Positions 9,398 through 36,786 of a DNA stretch of 37,539 nt are shown here, piece after piece. The translations under genes were made by a program, and so were the position numbers. The notes beneath the pieces are model-generated. The model saw nothing but the letters and a program-made list of their open reading frames with translations. It was not told where the DNA came from and did no database searches. Where the stretch lies: the NCBI GenBank assembly GCA_013298105.1, contig JAAFJK010000328.1, positions 1 through 37,539 of the forward strand, written 5' to 3'. Source of the DNA: Cytophagales bacterium. Lineage in GTDB: Bacteria; Bacteroidota; Bacteroidia; Cytophagales; Microscillaceae. Every line of letters begins with the position of its first letter. Within the stretch, counting starts at the first letter, position 1.

Positions 9398-9410
9398 CTT
9401 TATGATTTCT

Positions 9411-9585
9411 GGTTCTTAAAAAGTTATTGCGGGTGTTTGATTTTTAGAGAACTTCAACCCTTCGGGTGTCTAAACTAACTAACTCATTTTGAGTTAGTTA
9501 GTTTAGACACCCGAAGGGTTGAAGCAACATGACTTACTTTCACAATGCCTCATATTTCAAATTCCGCAATAACTTTCGAAGAACC
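9411..9585. mobile_element. Non-autonomous mobile element copy A (175 bp, 8-bp target duplication)
   Basis: The ends are imperfect inverted repeats of 22 bp: left 9411-9432 begins GGTTCTTAAAAAGTTATTGC, right 9564-9585 ends GCAATAACTTTCGAAGAACC. TGATTTCT occurs immediately before (9403-9410) and after (9586-9593), an 8-bp target-site duplication. There is no coding capacity. The same ends and another 8-bp duplication occur at 13908-14202 with a different interior, so this is a miniature element family moved in trans by an unidentified transposase. Confidence 0.85.
9452..9524. repeat. Perfect 35-bp inverted repeat with a 3-nt loop inside element A
   Basis: Bases 9452-9486 (starting CTTCAACCCTTCGGGTGTCT) are the exact reverse complement of 9490-9524, separated by TTT only. 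As RNA or as a DNA cruciform this is a very stable hairpin. Confidence 0.95.
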
Positions 9586-9672
9586 TGATTTCTTTTTGCT
9601 TTTTTTTCCAATGTCTTGTTTGATGTGTATCAAGTTTGTATTTCTAAAATGGTGCGGCGGGGCTTTATTTTT

Positions 9673-10521
9673 TTACTCAGGCAATAAAATATTGTCAATC
9701 AATCTTATTTCCCCCAAATAACCCGCTATACAAAGTGCTATCCGCGAGGTATCGGCAATGGTTTGGACAGGCTGTAGTGTTTCGGAGTGTACGATTTCAA
9801 AGTATTCGAGGCGAATGGGCGTACTTTCAAAAAAGTCTGTAATACGACTGCGCACTATAGAGAAATCTTTTTGCTCTTGTTGGATAAGGTCGCGTGCCAA
9901 AAAGAGGGCTTGCGGTAGCAAAACCGCGTGTTTGCGCTGTTCGGGTGTGAGGCGCAGATTGCGCGAAGAAAGAGCCAAGCCATCTTCTTCTCGGATAGTA
10001 GGACACATGATAAACTCAAGGTCAAACGACAAATCACGCACCAAGCTCTCTATGATACGGCATTGCTGAAGGTCTTTTTGTCCAAAATAAGCGCGGTCGG
10101 GTTGTACGATATGAAAAAGTTTGCTGACCACGATGCCCACTCCGTTAAAATGCCCTGGTCTGTGCGCACCTTCCATCACTTGCTCAAGTGCGCCAAAGTC
10201 CATTCGAAGCGTAGGCTTCTCCCCATACATCGTGCGGTCGTCTGGCAAAAACAAGTATAAATTTGGATAAGGCGCAAGAAGATTGATGTCTTTTTCAAAA
10301 TGTCGAGGATATTTATCAAAGTCTTGAGTATTGTTGAACTGTAGCGGATTCACAAAAATACTACAAATTACCAAGTCGTTTTCTTTGACAGCCTGCTCGA
10401 TGAGCGAAAGATGTCCTTCGTGCAATGCACCCATAGTAGGCACAAAGCCAATAGTCTTGCCTGCCATACGCGACTCGCGCAGGTAAGTTTTTAGTGCGGG
10501 AATTTGGTCAAAGAGCAACAT
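9673..10521 (-). CDS. panC: Pantoate--beta-alanine ligase (pantothenate synthetase)
   Basis: 282 residues, the normal family length. It joins pantoate and beta-alanine using ATP, the last step of pantothenate (vitamin B5) synthesis. Seen motifs: FVPTMGALHEGHLSLI (HxGH nucleotide-binding motif, near residues 27-42), SIFVNPLQF, HRPGHFNGVGIVVSKLFHIV, AYFGQKDLQQ, and ALSSRNLRL (KMSKS-like SSRN). It starts at 10521 with a good promoter about 31 nt upstream and is divergent from the glycogen-synthase-like gene. The stop at 9673 is followed, after about 85 bases, by mobile element A. Confidence 0.97.
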   Translation of the reverse strand: MLLFDQIPALKTYLRESRMAGKTIGFVPTMGALHEGHLSLIEQAVKENDLVICSIFVNPLQFNNTQDFDKYPRHFEKDINLLAPYPNLYLFLPDDRTMYGEKPTLRMDFGALEQVMEGAHRPGHFNGVGIVVSKLFHIVQPDRAYFGQKDLQQCRIIESLVRDLSFDLEFIMCPTIREEDGLALSSRNLRLTPEQRKHAVLLPQALFLARDLIQQEQKDFSIVRSRITDFFESTPIRLEYFEIVHSETLQPVQTIADTSRIALCIAGYLGEIRLIDNILLPE

Positions 10522-10552
10522 AATAATAAGGTGCTGTTTAGAGCTAAAAACA

Positions 10553-10584
10553 CAAAGTTATATACTTTTGCGAAAAATACACAA
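10553..10584 (-). promoter_or_regulatory. Promoter of panC
   Basis: On the minus strand TTG (10582-10584), 21 nt, TAACTTTG (10553-10560). The ATG of panC follows after a leader of about 31 nt. Confidence 0.6.
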
Positions 10585-10602
10585 CTATTGAAAAAAAATA
10601 AC

Positions 10603-10610
10603 TAATTTTG
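10603..10610 (+). promoter_or_regulatory. -7 box (TAATTTTG) upstream of the glycogen-synthase-like gene
   Basis: TAATTTTG matches the Bacteroidota -7 consensus and leaves a 31-nt leader before the ATG at 10642. The expected -33 TTG at the right spacing is not evident, so this is weaker than its divergent partner. Confidence 0.45.
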
Positions 10611-10641
10611 CACGTTAGTTTTAAGAACGTTCATTCCTTTT

Positions 10642-11466
10642 ATGTCAAAATTGCGAGTTTTGTATGTAGCAAGTGAAATTGCTCCATTCCTCCAAATCAC
10701 AGAAATAGCAGAAATAGTGCGCCAAATACCGCAAGCTATGCAAGAATATGGTATGGAAATACGTATTATTGTCCCCAGATATGGCACTATCCTTGAGCGT
10801 AAGCACCGCCTGCATGAAGTAGTCCGCCTCTCAGGTATCAACATCACAGTAGGTGATGACGAAAAACCGCTACTCATCAAAGTCGCTTCTGTACCTCAAG
10901 CAAAGCTACAGGTATATTTTATAGACAATGACGACTACTTTCATCGAAAAGCCGATTGGAGTGATGCAAACGGCAAGTTCTGTACTGACAATGACGAAAG
11001 AGCTATCTTTTTCTGCAAAGGCGTGTTGGAAACTGTGAAGAAGCTCGGCTGGTCGCCCCACATTATCCATTGCCACGACTGGATGAGTGCCATTATCCCT
11101 TTGTACCTAAAAACTTCTTACCGCAAAGACCCCGTTTTTAATCACAGCAAATGCCTCTACAGTGTGTATGACAATCACTTTGAGCATAATTTTGATGTCC
11201 AAAACCTGACCTCCAAAGTCTTGATGCAAGACATCGATGCTGAAGAAATTGCGCACCTCCAAGAAGCAAACTATCAAGGACTCACGCGCCTTGCTATGGA
11301 GTACGCAGATATGATAGTGGCTGGGCAGGCAAGTTACAATGCGCCTACCTCGATGCTTTTAGACGAATATGCCAGCAAAAAAGAAATTATACAAGTATCT
11401 AAACCAGATGAATTTCATGACATTTACCACCAAGTCCTCACAGCCGAGCTTGTCAGTGTGTTGTAA
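10642..11466 (+). CDS. Glycogen/starch-synthase-like protein, N-terminal (GT5) domain only
   Basis: 274 residues resembling only the first half of GlgA: LRVLYVASEIAPF at the start, GMEIRIIVPRYG, VYFIDNDDYFHR, DNDERAIFFCKGVLE, and IIHCHDWMSAIIPLYLK. Full synthases are about 480 residues and bind ADP-glucose with the K-T/S-G-G-L loop near the N-terminus plus a C-terminal GT-B domain. Here the loop position reads LQITEIAEIV, and the C-terminal domain is absent, so normal synthase activity is unlikely. From memory, such half-length proteins beside panC and a DUF4270 gene recur in Bacteroidota; that suggests a conserved but unassigned role. It is divergent from panC and overlaps the next gene. Confidence 0.8.
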   Translation: MSKLRVLYVASEIAPFLQITEIAEIVRQIPQAMQEYGMEIRIIVPRYGTILERKHRLHEVVRLSGINITVGDDEKPLLIKVASVPQAKLQVYFIDNDDYFHRKADWSDANGKFCTDNDERAIFFCKGVLETVKKLGWSPHIIHCHDWMSAIIPLYLKTSYRKDPVFNHSKCLYSVYDNHFEHNFDVQNLTSKVLMQDIDAEEIAHLQEANYQGLTRLAMEYADMIVAGQASYNAPTSMLLDEYASKKEIIQVSKPDEFHDIYHQVLTAELVSVL

Positions 11467-12826
11467 ACAGCTCCTTGCCTGCCTTTGGATAGGCGTATGC
11501 CTCTTTTTTTGTACATCTTGCGACCAAAACTCCATCATTGGGAGAGGCATCATCAATAAATCTGAAGCCAGCCTCATAGAAACGGATACTTTCACAGTAG
11601 AAGCAAGCACAGTTTTAGCTGATAGCGTGCGTACAGACAGAGGAGTAACAGATTATCTGCTGGCGGGGCAATACCAAGACCCTACTTTTGGCAAGATTAC
11701 AGCCACGAGCTTTTTTAGGATTGTGCCAGGAAGTAACCCCGTAAAAATTCCTGATGATACATCAGTCGATTCACAAACCATTGATTCTTTGGTACTTGTG
11801 CTGGGGCTTCAAAAGTTTGCAGGCGACCCACTTACAGTCTATCCAAATAAAGACGTAACACAAACCTTGCTTATCCACCGTTTGACTGAAGAAGTAACAA
11901 ACAGTATCAAATATTATAGCTTCAACGAAATAGCCTACGACCCTACGCCACTTGCCAGCGTAACTTTTAATGTAGCGAAATTGAAAGAAGATAAGTTTTT
12001 GCGTGTGAATCTTACGCAACTTGCGCCTGCATTCTCAACTGAAATTATTAACCTTGTCAAAGATGGTGTAACCACTTCAGAGGTTTTCCAAACTATCCTC
12101 AAAGGATTTGCGTTAGTACCACCTCCAAACAGCAACAACAATGTCATAGCTTTTGCAAACGACAACAGTACAGCTTTAGTAGTCCATTACACCAAAACCA
12201 AGGTATTGGAAAATGGCGCAATCCCAGACAGAAGAACCCCTGCAGTAATAAACTTGTTTCCTGGTATCAGTTTTCATGGCGTAAAGGCAGATAGGACAGG
12301 TACACCTCTTGCGACTGCCATGCCCTGGACTCCGCTACTGGCTAAAAATATGAACGGCAATGCCTATATGCAAGCCTGCTTGGGCTTTTATACAAGGCTT
12401 ACCTTTCCTACCCTGAAGAACTTAAAAAAATTGGGCAATGTGCTTATCAATAAAACCATTTTGCACATAAAGCCTGCACTCAACTCTACGGAAGGCTATG
12501 CAGTGCCTGCAAATTTATTTTTTTATGAATCAGGCGCAAATAGTAAATTTGCCTACCAAACCATCAACAATGAAAGACGCGAAAAACTCATAAGCCTTGA
12601 CGGTACAAATAACCCTTTTGTGGGCTATGACACACGCGATGAAGAATATGAAGTTTATCTTAGCAGACATTGCCACGCGCTCATGTCAGGCGATAAGACA
12701 AATGAAGGCATAATAGTCGTACCCGCCAACAACAGCTTTACCGTAAACCGAGCCGTACTCAGTAACACGCTCACAAATACGCCCAACAAGATAAAACTGC
12801 GTGTATTTTATACTATTTTCAAATAA
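11417..12826 (+). CDS. DUF4270-family lipoprotein
   Basis: 469 residues from the ATG at 11417. The start was chosen because it gives a lipoprotein signal: a basic N-terminus, hydrophobic WIGVCLFFCTSC, and lipobox cysteine C35 followed by D and Q. ATGs at 11369 and 11408 are also in frame. The sequence after it (IIGRGIINKSEASLIETDTF) and the body, rich in beta strands with DSLVLVLGL and LFFYESG, match the DUF4270 family, cell-envelope proteins of unknown function found in Bacteroidota. The gene begins inside the last 50 bases of the glycogen-synthase-like gene, implying translational coupling. Confidence 0.8.
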   Translation: MTFTTKSSQPSLSVCCKQLLACLWIGVCLFFCTSCDQNSIIGRGIINKSEASLIETDTFTVEASTVLADSVRTDRGVTDYLLAGQYQDPTFGKITATSFFRIVPGSNPVKIPDDTSVDSQTIDSLVLVLGLQKFAGDPLTVYPNKDVTQTLLIHRLTEEVTNSIKYYSFNEIAYDPTPLASVTFNVAKLKEDKFLRVNLTQLAPAFSTEIINLVKDGVTTSEVFQTILKGFALVPPPNSNNNVIAFANDNSTALVVHYTKTKVLENGAIPDRRTPAVINLFPGISFHGVKADRTGTPLATAMPWTPLLAKNMNGNAYMQACLGFYTRLTFPTLKNLKKLGNVLINKTILHIKPALNSTEGYAVPANLFFYESGANSKFAYQTINNERREKLISLDGTNNPFVGYDTRDEEYEVYLSRHCHALMSGDKTNEGIIVVPANNSFTVNRAVLSNTLTNTPNKIKLRVFYTIFK

Positions 12827-12854
12827 TTTTGGGAATTAAAGAAGTGTGGATTAT

Positions 12855-12895
12855 ATTTGGGGTGTATTTCAATGAACTTGGAATACACCCCAAAT
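12855..12895 (+). terminator. 14-bp hairpin between the DUF4270 gene and the oxygenase gene
   Basis: ATTTGGGGTGTATT (12855-12868) pairs perfectly with AATACACCCCAAAT (12882-12895) over a 13-nt loop, 29 bases after the DUF4270 stop and 21 bases before the oxygenase ATG. It may end the upstream transcript, or act in the leader of the downstream gene; only a short T-rich stretch (TTGTATTTTAT) follows. Confidence 0.5.
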
Positions 12896-12916
12896 TTGTA
12901 TTTTATCCCCTCAAAT

Positions 12917-13891
12917 ATGCAAGACCAATCTCTTTTTGACACTATCCCTTCGCTTGACCTCGCGGACTTCTTATCAGGAGATGCGGCTTTGAAGCAAAAA
13001 TTTGTAGCCGAACTCGGACAAGCCTTTGGACAAATTGGCTTCGTGGCTATCCGCAATCACGGACTCAGTGATGACTTGGTAGCGAAACTTTATGCAAACT
13101 TCATGCAGTTTTTTCAACAACCTGACGAAGTAAAAATGCAAAGTCATGTAGCTGGACTTGCAGGGCAACGTGGCTACACCCCGCGTGGACAAGAACACGC
13201 TAAGGGGCGCAATGTGGGCGATTTGAAAGAGTTTTATCAGCTTGGGCAAACTGTATTAGATACAGATGCTATCAAATCTGAATATCCTGACAATGTTTTT
13301 CCTGCCAATCTGCCTGACTTTCAGCCTACTGTTTTGGAGGCATACCGCACACTTGAAACGGCAGGCAAGCACCTTTTGAGTGCCATCGCGCTGTTTTTGG
13401 GATTAGAAGAAACGTATTTTGAACCTAAAGTCCATAACGGAAACAGCATTTTGCGCGGGTTGCATTATTACCCTATCACGAATCCTGACGAAGTGCCAGA
13501 TGGCGCTGTACGTGCCGCCGCACATGGCGACATCAATCTTATCACGCTCCTCATGGGTGCAAGTGCAGATGGCTTAGAGATTTTGCGTAAAGATGACAAA
13601 TGGATAGCTGTAACGGCTTTGCCTGAACAAATCGTAGTGAATGTAGGCGATATGCTCGAACGCCTTACAAACAATACGCTCAAATCTACTATCCACCGCG
13701 TAGTAAATCCACCACGCGAAAAAATGGGCAATTCGCGTTATTCTATCCCGTTTTTTATGCACCCAAGAAGCGAAATGGATTTGACTTGCCTGCCCTCCTG
13801 TATTTCTGAAGCGAATCCTAAACAATATCCTGACACGACTGCGGGGGCTTTTTTGAATGAACGCCTCGCAGAAATAGGATTGAAGAAATAA
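12917..13891 (+). CDS. Isopenicillin-N-synthase-like 2-oxoglutarate/Fe(II) oxygenase
   Basis: 324 residues from ATG 12917, chosen because DTIPSLDLADF is the usual family start; an ATG at 12857 lies inside the upstream hairpin. The double-stranded beta-helix iron site is complete: H203 and D205 in AAHGDINLITLL, H260 in STIHRVV, and the co-substrate-binding R274/S276 in SRYSIPFF. N-terminal DIOX_N features (GFVAIRNHGL) are present. These soluble enzymes hydroxylate, desaturate or cyclise small molecules using 2-oxoglutarate and O2. Substrate unknown. It carries two CTTGCCTRCC words. Confidence 0.9.
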   Translation: MQDQSLFDTIPSLDLADFLSGDAALKQKFVAELGQAFGQIGFVAIRNHGLSDDLVAKLYANFMQFFQQPDEVKMQSHVAGLAGQRGYTPRGQEHAKGRNVGDLKEFYQLGQTVLDTDAIKSEYPDNVFPANLPDFQPTVLEAYRTLETAGKHLLSAIALFLGLEETYFEPKVHNGNSILRGLHYYPITNPDEVPDGAVRAAAHGDINLITLLMGASADGLEILRKDDKWIAVTALPEQIVVNVGDMLERLTNNTLKSTIHRVVNPPREKMGNSRYSIPFFMHPRSEMDLTCLPSCISEANPKQYPDTTAGAFLNERLAEIGLKK

Positions 13892-13907
13892 GGTGTTTGG
13901 TAATTAT

Positions 13908-14202
13908 GGTTCTTAAAAAATTATTGTGCAGGCAAAACTGTAGAACAGGCTTCCAGCCTGTTGTTTCAAATAATAAACAGGCTGGAAGTCTGTTCTACAG
14001 AATATTCCGCAATAACTTTCGAAACTGTAGAACAGGCTTCCAGCCTGTTGTTTCAAATAATAAACAGGCTGGAAGCCTGTTCTACAGAATATTCCGCAAT
14101 AACTTTCGAAACTGTAGAACAGGCTTCCAGCCTGTTGTTTCAAATAATAAACAGGCTGGAAGTCTGTTCTACAGAATATTCCGCAATAACTTTCGCAGAA
14201 CC
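13908..14202. mobile_element. Non-autonomous mobile element copy B (295 bp, 8-bp target duplication)
   Basis: The left end 13908-13929 begins GGTTCTTAAAAAATTATTG and the right end 14181-14202 ends CGCAATAACTTTCGCAGAACC minus one base, the same termini as element A. GTAATTAT flanks it on both sides (13900-13907 and 14203-14210), an 8-bp target duplication. The interior is a three-copy 87-bp repeat array quite unlike the single large hairpin of copy A. It separates the oxygenase gene from its probable terminator. Confidence 0.85.
13936..14196. repeat. Three tandem 87-bp units, each a long hairpin
   Basis: Units start at 13936, 14023 and 14110 and differ by only a few bases. In each, GTAGAACAGGCTTCCAGCCT plus GTT pairs with its inverted copy across a short AT-rich loop, giving a stem of about 23 bp, and each arm contains its own AGGCT..AGCCT palindrome. 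The unit ends with a copy of the element's right terminus (CCGCAATAACTTTCG). Open frames through it (repeating RTGFQPVV or AGSLFYRIF) are artefacts of the repeat. Confidence 0.95.
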
Positions 14203-14217
14203 GTAATTATTTATAAG

Positions 14218-33210: not shown

Positions 33211-33409
33211 TGAATAGGATAAGATTTTAAACCCTACTGATTACCGACAAGTTTTTTGGAAAAGTAATAAAAATATGGTTGTCTGACAATTTTTGTGGAA
33301 AAACATTTTTTGAGCAAGTTCGGATTTAAGAAACGCCTTTTTTGCTCAATAGGATAGGGTTTAAAACCCTATCCTATTGAGCAAAAAAACTACCACAAAA
33401 ATTGTCAGA
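33211..33409. repeat. Nested inverted repeats with one degenerate copy
   Basis: An outer pair CTGACAATTTTTGTGG (33283-33298) / CCACAAAAATTGTCAG (33394-33409) encloses a near-perfect palindrome at about 33339-33390 (TTTTTTGCTCAATAGGATAG then GGTTT and its inverse). A weaker copy of the inner part (AATAGGATAAGATTTTAAAC) is at 33213-33232. The gap 33187-33437 holds nothing else. Confidence 0.8.
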
Positions 33410-33437
33410 GAACCGAGAAAATTAAAAAAACCTGATA

Positions 33438-33947: not shown

Positions 33948-35407
33948 CTGATAACTGTGGAAATCTTTTTTTTAACTTTTTTTAGTTTTTAGATATTGGA
34001 CAAGTTCATCAATTTGTTCGTGTGTAATATCATTTTCTTTCATCCAGCTGGTTACTTCTTGAAAATTAGCGAGTTTTTCTAACCCTTTTAGGAGGAAAAA
34101 GAGGGTTACTTTTCCTTTTGAGAGTGCTAATTTACACAACATCTTTGCTGTTGGATGCTCCTTGAGTGCTGTTTCCATCTCTTTAAAGTACCCGACTAGA
34201 AAAAAGGCGATGGCTAATAAATTGGCTATTGAATTGAAATCACGCACTTGGATCGTTTCCCAGCCTAAATTTTGTTTCAAAAAACGAAACACGATTTCTA
34301 TTTTGAAGCGCAAAATATAGGCACAATACACTGATTTGGCTTCTTCCAAGTTTGTAATATTGCGGTTAGTTATCAATAACATAGGGTGGTCAAAGATATT
34401 ATTGCCTCCTTGTTTTAAGGTAATACGCACTACTTGGTAGGTCATTTCTCCCAATTTCAAGGTATCCCATTCTACTACGCAAGTAACTTTTGTATATTTT
34501 TTACCTTGGATAGTCAAGGTGTCAAGTAAATATTCGCCTTTATGGGCAAACTTTTTGTCTACCAATTTTTGATAGGCGATTTTTTTTGACTCCTTACCTG
34601 TTTTAGGGGTGTATAATGTTTTGGTTTCATCTGAATCACGTGATAATTTTAAGCGAATCACAAATTGGTCTTTCAAATGATGAAGGTAACTAAAAATATC
34701 TTCACTGTCATATTCTCTATCCAAAATATGGCAGATGGTACGGTCTGGGTTTTCTTTTTTCAAAATTTCACTACAACGTTTGGCTTGGGCTTTGAATAAA
34801 ATTACATTGTTGATATGTTGATTGTCTTTCACTAATTGTTGGGTTTCGGCACTTTGTTCCGACAATTTCGCGAGGGCTTCTTGCGACACAAAAGTGGGCA
34901 TCGCATTGCTATATACTTGATGGTCAAGTAGATGAACCTGTTGCTCCTGCGGATTGATGGCAACAGAATTTAAGGTCTTGTAACCACGAACCACTTGTTT
35001 TTTAAGGGATAACACCTGACCCAAATTTTCCAACTCGGAAGATTCAGGCTTGCGTATATCACAACCATCATGCAAAACATATACTTCAATGGAACTACCC
35101 AAGTCTGCAAGTGTTCGCTCCTGAACACAGTCTAAAACTATGTCTTGGCTCAAAGTATTCACTTGCTTACCTGATACCAAGCCACTCAATTTTTCATACT
35201 CGTTCTTATCTTCCGAAGAAGAGTAGATATGTAAGTTATTGTTAGTCAATATTTTATCTGTTAACAGTTCAATGTTTTTTTTACGCGGATGTCTTTGTAT
35301 CTCGAACAAAGCGGGGATAAATAATCTGTAAGGCTCATAATTAAGGTTTTTTTGGCACTAAGATAAGAATTTTTCAATAACATACAAAAGATTTCCACAG
35401 TTATCAG
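33948..35407. mobile_element. IS4-family insertion sequence, 1460 bp, perfect 22-bp terminal inverted repeats
   Basis: CTGATAACTGTGGAAATCTT plus TT at 33948-33969 is exactly inverted at 35386-35407. It contains one transposase gene filling nearly the whole element. No direct duplication is seen: ..CTAATCTT precedes and TATTTTTTAT follows. Intact ends and frame suggest it is recent and may be active; the missing duplication suggests an adjacent deletion or recombination after insertion. Confidence 0.9.
33972..35309 (-). CDS. IS4-family DDE transposase
   Basis: 445 residues from TTG 35309. The DDE residues are visible: D81 in YVLHDGCDIRK, D197 in HILDREYDSEDIF, and E338 within the IS4 signature Y-(2)-R-(3)-E-(6)-K (Y331, R334, E338, K345, in YILRFKIEIVFRFLKQ). 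The start is uncertain: the frame stays open for 15 more codons (NYEPYRLFIPALFEIQRHPR reads like protein) without an ATG, so a non-ATG start farther upstream, or a frameshift from the ATG at 35343, is possible. It cuts and pastes the surrounding element. Confidence 0.93.
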   Translation of the reverse strand: MFEIQRHPRKKNIELLTDKILTNNNLHIYSSSEDKNEYEKLSGLVSGKQVNTLSQDIVLDCVQERTLADLGSSIEVYVLHDGCDIRKPESSELENLGQVLSLKKQVVRGYKTLNSVAINPQEQQVHLLDHQVYSNAMPTFVSQEALAKLSEQSAETQQLVKDNQHINNVILFKAQAKRCSEILKKENPDRTICHILDREYDSEDIFSYLHHLKDQFVIRLKLSRDSDETKTLYTPKTGKESKKIAYQKLVDKKFAHKGEYLLDTLTIQGKKYTKVTCVVEWDTLKLGEMTYQVVRITLKQGGNNIFDHPMLLITNRNITNLEEAKSVYCAYILRFKIEIVFRFLKQNLGWETIQVRDFNSIANLLAIAFFLVGYFKEMETALKEHPTAKMLCKLALSKGKVTLFFLLKGLEKLANFQEVTSWMKENDITHEQIDELVQYLKTKKS

Positions 35408-35498: not shown

Positions 35499-36786
35499 GG
35501 CGCACCTCCTTTCCTGCTATCGGGTTTCCGAATGAATCGAAAAGACTTGTTTTGGGTGGGGCTTCCCTGCCCTCCACTTTCTTACGCACCTTAGACAAAG
35601 TGCTAAAGTTTTTCTTGTAAGCCTTGCTTAATATGCGGGTGTCTGTTATGCCTTGCCTGTATGCTTCTTCAAGTGTGGCAGGCAAGTCTTGCTGTAAGTC
35701 TTGGGGCAAGTCTTGGGGCAAGTCTTGCTGTAAGTCTTGGGGCAAGTCTTGCTTGCCTGCCGTAAATCCTATGGGCTTTTTGGGCAAGTCTTGCTGTAAG
35801 TCTTGGTTCAAGACTTGGTAAGTCTTAGGCAAGTCTTGCGGGCTGTTTAGCAAGTCTTTGAAGATGTTGGGCGCGTGGCTTGTCAAGATTTGTATGGCTT
35901 CGTGCCAAGCGTTGGTTTCTTTGTCCCTAAATTTCTTGGGGTCTTCGGCTGTATGGTAGGCATACCAAATTAAGAACCAATTACAGAGTATAAGCAAGGC
36001 TTCTGTAATGCCTGCGAATATTACCCAAAACCATATATTGAAGCCCTGTGTGCGGGCGGTTTCTTCGCGCTGGGTGGTGTGGTTGGCGGTGGCGGTCTTG
36101 ATGAGCTGGTCGCGGTCGCGCTCAAATTTGGCGATGCGGTCTTGGTAGGCGCGTATGTTATCCGCTACATTTTTGTCATAGATATTTATCTGCCCCTGCC
36201 ACGATACAGACTTTCTGAACTCGTTTAGGTCTTGGCGTGTCTGCTCTATGCGGGTTTGGTAGGCAAGGCGCGTACTATCGGTGCGGGTGGTGTGCTGGGC
36301 TTCCTGCTGTTGGGCGGTGCGGTCTATGTGTATGTACGCCTCTTTTGCACCCTCCAAACTCGTATATACACTGCCTGCCAAAAATACGCCTGCACCCAAA
36401 AAAAGTATGGCGGTTACTTCCGAAAAGCCTTTGCTGTAGGCGCGTGTGAACGCTATGTCGAAGGTTTGGTTCTTGCCTGCCTCGATGCCTGTAAGCAATA
36501 GGAGGGCTAATAAAATGGCAACTTCCTTGCCTACGTTATCAGCGAATCTGTAATAAAAATAGGATATAGCCGTAACGATGCTCACTACACTTAGCACCCA
36601 CAAAAGTATGTGGGCAAGTCTTTTTAGTGGCTTAAATTCTTGTGCAAAAGGCTTTTCTGCCAACTTCTCTATGGATCGGTCGGTTTCTTGTTGCACCCAT
36701 CGGGCGGTCTCCAATTTTTTGATGTTTAATTTTTTTTCGGGTGGCGTTTGGATTTCTCGATTATCCTGCCTATCTTTGTATATCAT
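35491..36786 (-). CDS. Four-helix membrane protein with external coiled coil and QDLP repeats
   Basis: 431 residues, no recognised family. Cytoplasmic N-terminus (1-57); membrane helices about 58-79, 88-103, 124-143; a polar helical/coiled-coil region 150-248 (RTAQQQEAQHTTRTDSTRL, FERDRDQLIKTATANH); a fourth helix 250-277; then a cytoplasmic tail with QDLP/QDLQ repeats (316-369) and a final basic helical region (EEAYRQGITDTRILSKAYKK) that looks like a small helix-turn-helix. It is the third gene of a minus-strand operon and is coupled to a gene destroyed by IS4. A mobile-element or phage-linked membrane protein is possible; nothing proves it. Confidence 0.65.
   Translation of the reverse strand: MIYKDRQDNREIQTPPEKKLNIKKLETARWVQQETDRSIEKLAEKPFAQEFKPLKRLAHILLWVLSVVSIVTAISYFYYRFADNVGKEVAILLALLLLTGIEAGKNQTFDIAFTRAYSKGFSEVTAILFLGAGVFLAGSVYTSLEGAKEAYIHIDRTAQQQEAQHTTRTDSTRLAYQTRIEQTRQDLNEFRKSVSWQGQINIYDKNVADNIRAYQDRIAKFERDRDQLIKTATANHTTQREETARTQGFNIWFWVIFAGITEALLILCNWFLIWYAYHTAEDPKKFRDKETNAWHEAIQILTSHAPNIFKDLLNSPQDLPKTYQVLNQDLQQDLPKKPIGFTAGKQDLPQDLQQDLPQDLPQDLQQDLPATLEEAYRQGITDTRILSKAYKKNFSTLSKVRKKVEGREAPPKTSLFDSFGNPIAGKEVRHV
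35680..35841 (-). repeat. In-frame minisatellite encoding QDLP/QDLQ repeats
   Basis: About nine units of 12-15 bp built on CAAGTCTTG (plus strand: GGCAAGTCTTGGGGCAAGTC) encode residues 316-369 of the membrane protein. Units are close to identical, so slippage can change copy number without breaking the frame when units are multiples of three. Two exact GGCAGGCAAG/CTTGCCTGCC words lie within it. Confidence 0.85.

Follow-up and report, generated by a model that had tools for sequence, protein, structure and literature searches.

A family of miniature transposons with 8-bp target duplications and different palindromic interiors, among them REP dimers, in a Cytophagales genome

Two elements with similar ends

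The DNA studied here, called the window throughout, is a stretch of 37,539 nt, contig JAAFJK010000328.1 of the Cytophagales bacterium assembly GCA_013298105.1 (genome G000). It contains two short noncoding elements of one family, named M1, with inverted ends and flanking direct repeats of 8 bp. Element 1 (9411-9585, 175 bp) has panC on one side and TGATTTCT on both flanks, and element 2 (13908-14202, 295 bp) lies between two copies of GTAATTAT. An earlier interpretation made from the letters alone (the sequence-only reading) had located both elements exactly and had described their flanking repeats as perfect, and both points were confirmed. It had also called the ends identical, but they are no more than similar: the inverted ends measure about 22 bp, elements 1 and 2 have 2 mismatches in 20 bases between their left ends, and within element 2 the left and right ends disagree at 6 of 22. 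The features are as follows.

9403-9410: left target duplication of element 1, TGATTTCT, 8 bp; the duplications of the family are exactly 8 bp
9411-9432, plus strand: left inverted end of element 1, M1 family, with matches genome-wide
9452-9524: class B cargo of element 1, a perfect 35-bp hairpin with a 3-base loop (arms 9452-9486 and 9490-9524)
9564-9585, minus strand: right inverted end of element 1, M1 family
9586-9593: right target duplication of element 1, TGATTTCT
13900-13907: left target duplication of element 2, GTAATTAT, 8 bp; the element is absent in a same-genus genome
13908-13929, plus strand: left inverted end of element 2, M1 family
13935-14195: class A cargo of element 2, three 87-bp units, each a dimer of GTAG-type repetitive extragenic palindromes (REPs) plus an inner right end
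13940-13962, plus strand: GTAG REP of the first unit, consisting of GTAG, the 8-bp stem AACAGGCT, the loop TCC and the stem AGCCTGTT (REP definition from PMC3733652)
13976-13998, minus strand: second REP of the first unit, inverted relative to the one before and forming a head-to-head (HH) dimer with it, tag outward; its stem has one mismatch
14181-14202, minus strand: right inverted end of element 2, M1 family
14203-14210: right target duplication of element 2, GTAATTAT

Copy number and target duplications

A search of the 5.35-Mb draft genome with a 20-bp end, allowing at most 3 mismatches, returned 197 forward and 192 reverse matches (389 in total), against 0 forward and 1 reverse for the same pattern read backwards; a stricter 22-bp end pattern still gave 155 + 155 matches. 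Paired ends were then examined in a census of 120 contigs, picked mainly as known end carriers, plus the window (1.24 Mb in total), which yielded 131 noncoding elements of 60-310 bp. These contain chance open reading frames (ORFs) only, with no transposase gene between the ends. For the whole genome, the tally of gene-less mini-transposons with M1 ends comes to roughly 200.

Perfect 8-bp duplications flank 61 of the 129 testable elements, three of them reaching 9 bp, whereas offset controls on the same elements, with flanks taken 10, 20 or 30 bases farther out, gave 0 perfect matches. Chance is excluded by these two comparisons, 389 end matches versus 1 and 61/129 duplications versus 0. The duplicated 8-mers are 90% A+T, compared with 59% for the contigs, their first half favouring A and their second half T. 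When joined element flanks were queried against other contigs, empty paralogous sites with a single 8-mer were recovered, among them ATATTTTT (L210:13009), ATTTTATT (L111:5120) and CTTTTTAG (L151:8272). Likewise, a genome of the same genus carries GTAACTAAT, without the element, after the orthologue of the gene preceding element 2, the remaining intergenic DNA having diverged. Because empty sites, both paralogous and same-genus, hold one copy, the 8-mers were made by insertion. It is near certain that the elements are miniature inverted-repeat transposable elements (MITEs) with 8-bp duplications. The draft consists of 810 contigs, many of which break off inside M1 elements, which could raise the suspicion that repeats and 8-mers are accidents or artefacts of assembly; this is effectively refuted, since perfect duplications occur at dozens of sites, empty sites hold a single copy, and genomes assembled independently have the same ends.

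The sequence-only reading had held that its case would fall if both 8-mers predated insertion or if no further copies had the same ends. Empty sites with a single 8-mer and a large set of further copies were found instead, and that reading is right in substance. Its proposal of a transposase acting in trans agrees with noncoding copies, dozens of which, at separate AT-rich positions, are flanked by a duplication of exactly 8 bp, the target having been single beforehand.

Some M1 ends begin 17 bp inside other M1 ends (L126:255-291, L163:4047-4064). They look as if elements insert into one another's AT-rich inner ends.

Several interiors behind the same ends

The commonest interior, class A (elements of 121/122 bp), is a long hairpin built on ACAGGCTTCCAGCCTGT. 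Element 2 is a class A element in which the core and inner right end are repeated (121 + 2x87 bp). The sequence-only reading had set an array of 87-bp units against the 35-bp hairpin of element 1; hairpin and units were both verified, the units with a mutual identity of 99-100%, but what looked like an array is a 121-bp element with its core and inner right end in triplicate. A two-unit class A relative at L172:3079-3291, with the duplication AAAACTAA, has other breakpoints and includes the inner left end, so class A arrays arise repeatedly. Class B, the 175-bp type of element 1, has 13 copies in the censused contigs. Perfect duplications likewise accompany class C (156/157 bp) and a number of less common interiors; the clustering of interiors in the REP scan is too loose for counting classes. 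Two other genomes add interiors of their own: in G014 (metagenome-assembled genome, MAG, PH2015_09S_30_10) M1 ends surround an element of 109-110 bp with an interior unlike any class here, and in G141 (a Cytophagales MAG) they flank an interior of ~288 bp. The claim that different interiors stand behind the same ends has thus held, in this genome and beyond it.

The class A cargo has the anatomy of a REPIN

Class A reads GTAG-AACAGGCT-TCC-AGCCTGTT, then a spacer, then the inverted copy of that unit. According to a survey of REPs (PMC3733652), GTAG REPs carry a GTAG tag, stems mostly of 6-9 bp and short loops (2-3), and often form tag-outward (HH) dimers; REPINs are paired REPs that form a hairpin (PMC3116915). 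Class A has the GTAG tag beside a short stem-loop, as a REP does, and two inverted REPs in one hairpin, a tag-outward dimer, as a REPIN does. By comparison, any GTAG-REP structure turned up in 17 of 5000 background windows. What class A does not show is the spread of free dimers outside a constant frame: of the 207 class A cores counted in the census, 205 have an M1 end no more than 320 bp away. For this reason class A was classified as REPIN-like cargo instead of a free REPIN family. Unrelated viral contigs contain the same REP too, at times as a dimer, and throughout that collection the strict M1 end pattern has no match. Taken with the 205 of 207 cores, the viral copies indicate that the REP is independent of M1 ends elsewhere and spreads only with them here.

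Genes for REP-associated tyrosine transposases (RAYTs) are present in this genome. One of them (L129:3940-4918), which is bordered on each side by GTAG REPs of its own, stands directly inside a lone M1 end, and three more REP copies follow in tandem downstream; this locus is possibly a snapshot of the entry of REPs into MITEs. These RAYT genes, the locus inside an M1 end and the REPIN anatomy of class A would also suit a different account, in which the REP dimer itself is the mobile unit, spread by RAYT, and the 22-bp ends are a conserved spacer that travels with it. The duplicated 8-mers, however, sit exactly outside the 22-bp ends, and HUH enzymes of the IS200/IS605 type are not known to create such duplications. 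The same M1 ends also hold REP-free interiors, and the flanking REPs at the three RAYT loci inspected differ from those of class A. We therefore regard RAYT-driven spread as very unlikely. That a REPIN is carried as MITE cargo is, by contrast, probable, being well supported by the anatomy, though not in its history. In a limited search of the open-access literature, no report of REP dimers inside DDE-type MITE ends was encountered.

An ISL3-type transposase as the candidate enzyme

The sequence-only reading had recognised just two family members in the window. It had overlooked a decayed third copy and an element of a sister family, M2:

about 1650-1708: decayed class A remnant, half a REP dimer plus an inner right end fragment, between two same-strand genes
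33277-33414: sister MITE of family M2, 138 bp, with a 25-bp-arm hairpin at 33338-33388 and an ISL3-identical left end

This M2 copy has no intact target duplication. Its left end, at 33277, shows no difference over 22 bp from the end that adjoins an ISL3 transposase gene on contig C287. Across the contigs fetched, M2 elements have perfect 8-bp duplications in 13 of 37 tested pairs, 90% A+T in these duplications, and several different interiors. ISL3 elements make 8-bp target duplications, and M2 is consistent with this. The M1 ends agree with the known ISL3/M2 ends at 14-16 of 22 bases; beyond the common GGTTCT tip, 10 of 16 bases agree (shuffle p about 0.004). The duplications of M1 and M2 also have the same length and A+T content.

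Of 391 genomes from the order, only G000, G014, G141 and G007 have strict M1 ends, and precisely these four also carry ISL3 transposases with 50% identity or more to the G014 enzyme. The same ISL3 end is found on at least 5 contigs of G141. Between G141 and this genome, which belong to different families, the ISL3 end is 96.8% identical over 496 bp, with different flanks (pair of loci L031:1456-1952 and L275:1-496); this suggests transfer between bacterial families, and the horizontal movement of the ISL3 element is likely to be recent.

From this evidence the ISL3 family is the likely source of the M1 transposase. Several observations weigh against this assignment, and against the wider reading of M1 as ISL3-driven MITEs with REP cargo. 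The ISL3 transposase gene on C287 is cut by the contig end, the 5' end of the element was not seen, and the ISL3 copy of G007 is a broken fragment with a stop. The 50% identity cut was picked after seeing the data, and the four genomes of the co-occurrence are not independent, two of them belonging to one genus. Hybrid pairs of one M1 and one M2 end have a duplication in 0 of 11 cases, so M1 may not be a substrate of the known ISL3 copy. Nor did long end pairs, unpaired ends and the G141 loci reveal an autonomous M1 element, resolving instead into truncated MITEs or ordinary genes, so that the autonomous insertion sequence (IS) with the same ends that the sequence-only reading had proposed to find was not recovered. 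Finally, GTAG REPs are not a general interior content, being absent from class B, class C and the G014 interior.

In a rival variant the MITE mechanism is the same but the enzyme comes from another 8-bp-duplicating DDE family (e.g. IS1595, IS256), the ISL3 link being coincidental. In its favour, M1 ends were not found on any ISL3 element, pairing between M1 and M2 ends is not observed, and the families searched genome-wide in this genome were ISL3 and Y1 only. The agreement of the ends past the GGTTCT tip, the shared duplication length and composition, and the four-of-four co-occurrence argue for ISL3 instead, and the variant is unlikely, though it deserves some weight. No transposase gene was found between M1 ends, whereas M2 has its autonomous counterpart in the ISL3 element; under the ISL3 assignment the two families would reflect a single family of transposases that recognises two kinds of end, and its M1-specific member was probably lost to assembly. 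The contigs seen in the assembly include none shorter than about 3 kb.

An ISL3-alignment scan of the genome contigs found three loci only. A second ISL3-like match in G000 (C330) was rejected as the M1 source, having no M1-like end, and L123:547-626 was ruled out as an M1/M2 hybrid, having no duplication. Also dismissed as a source was an IS4-like IS of the window, whose ends are unrelated to M1. This IS (33948-35407) encodes a DDE_Tnp_1 protein of 445 aa and has perfect 22-bp ends, CTGATAACTGTGGAAATCTTTT, with no obvious target duplication.

A palindrome common to two transposon frames

A further family, M3, has 46 copies in G000 contigs (e.g. L163:9864-10007, minus-strand coordinates), of which 41 are exactly 144 bp long. 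Its ends are GGAACGAG and GGAATGAA, and its duplications measure 3 bp, mostly TTA or TAA (29/46); because of this length, M3 uses a different transposase. The arm of the M3 palindrome, AACAGACGCTTACAGCGTGGCT, is also found between M1 ends in class C, with 8-bp duplications. At L156:8531-8798 (268 bp), moreover, a whole M3 is nested in a class A element with the outer 8-bp duplication ATAATTTT, so cargo can be changed by nesting. The exchange or capture of interiors, as proposed by the sequence-only reading, gains from the shared arm, from the nested M3 and from the GTAG REP found away from M1 ends in viral contigs. The palindrome is common to two frames, and the direction of its capture is inferred. 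A bolder proposal is that REP dimers and other palindromes are modules passing between unrelated frames, that the REPIN here abandoned RAYT spread for DDE (ISL3-type) dispersal in a MITE, and that a second palindrome became common to MITEs with 8-bp and with 3-bp duplications. We put this forward tentatively, the case for it falling somewhat short of balance.

Genomic position and function

With simple ORF-based gene calls, 0 of 93 tested M1 copies lie inside called genes, although the contigs are 85% coding, and 20 of 68 lie between convergent genes, a configuration that accounts for 18% of intergenic length, a mild enrichment. The predicted RNA folds of the elements are very stable. From these three observations one could argue that the hairpins were kept and multiplied as transcription terminators or RNA stabilisers, with transposition incidental and selection shaping the family. 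Yet an intergenic location is expected anyway, because of selection against gene disruption; the duplications show that copies were created by insertion; and each window element stands next to an ordinary terminator-like hairpin that belongs to the adjacent gene. In Rfam no family reached its curated threshold, and the weaker matches were chance hairpin similarities. A terminator function was set aside, the convergent enrichment being only mild, and selection for such roles as the force behind the family is highly improbable. Some regulatory use is possible, but unneeded for the explanation.

Proposed mechanism and known systems

Overall, M1 probably represents DDE-type MITEs that are moved in trans by an ISL3-type transposase and carry replaceable palindromic cargo. 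The transposase would recognise the ~22-bp inverted ends of the non-autonomous M1 elements and insert them into AT-rich intergenic DNA, with duplication of exactly 8 bp. The enzyme may belong to the resident ISL3 subfamily, or be a sister copy with M1-matching ends that is missing from the fragmented assembly. The interior would be replaceable, being a REP dimer in class A or unrelated palindromes, and cargo probably came into an M1 copy by insertion or recombination and afterwards spread along with it. Element 2 was later enlarged by tandem duplication of its hairpin core.

MITEs and REPINs are both known, but each is regarded as a class of its own, with its own enzymes. Mobile insertion cassettes have common ends, different cargo (genes or mosaic modules) and a transposase from elsewhere. 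M1 resembles the pair MITEAba12/ISAba12 in being small and noncoding, with inverted ends, duplications of fixed length and AT-rich targets, and the share of perfect duplications is 40% in MITEAba12 versus 47% in M1 (PMC6382973). MITEAba12, however, has one core per family and a parent IS that was found, whereas M1 has several unrelated palindromic interiors and no same-ended parent was found. A second likeness is to ISL3 ISs: M2 ends are those of the ISL3 element of this genome, and M1 ends are similar, with the same 8-bp duplications; unlike ISL3 ISs, M1 matches the known ISL3 end at only the 14-16 of 22 bases noted above, and no ISL3 gene was found between its ends. Tn3-derived inverted-repeat miniature elements (TIMEs) likewise combine common ends and different cargo with a transposase made elsewhere, but their cargo consists of genes or mosaic modules (PMC4133298), whereas that of M1 is short palindromic DNA.

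Class A shares with REPINs and RAYT systems (PMC3116915, PMC3733652) the GTAG tag, the 8-bp stem, the 3-base loop and the tag-outward inverted dimer, and tandem clusters of REP units are known there too. Unlike free REPIN dimers, class A is nearly confined to the interior of DDE-type ends that have 8-bp duplications. A further parallel is offered by the GTAG-15 dimers of Anabaena variabilis, REP dimers regularly found within a constant outer repeat, a longer repeated palindrome; in the part of the survey that describes them, they are presented as an insertion into a palindrome, with no target duplications or transposase family reported (PMC3733652). That survey leaves open whether transposases other than RAYTs move palindromic repeats, above all those of the CGTC type (PMC3733652). 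If the mechanism proposed for M1 is true, a repeat credited to RAYT mobilisation may here be spread by another enzyme type. Because a GTAG-REP dimer is held in DDE-type ends with clean 8-bp duplications and in many copies, non-RAYT mobility of REPs becomes directly testable. Moreover, since within a single genome the same ends hold several hairpins that differ in copy number, M1 offers a natural experiment on why the interiors of MITEs are so frequently palindromic.

A minor feature elsewhere in the window is a set of tandem repeats of the CAAGTCTTG type at 35683-35817, which lie in a minus-strand gene and encode a Q-D-L-P/Q protein repeat.

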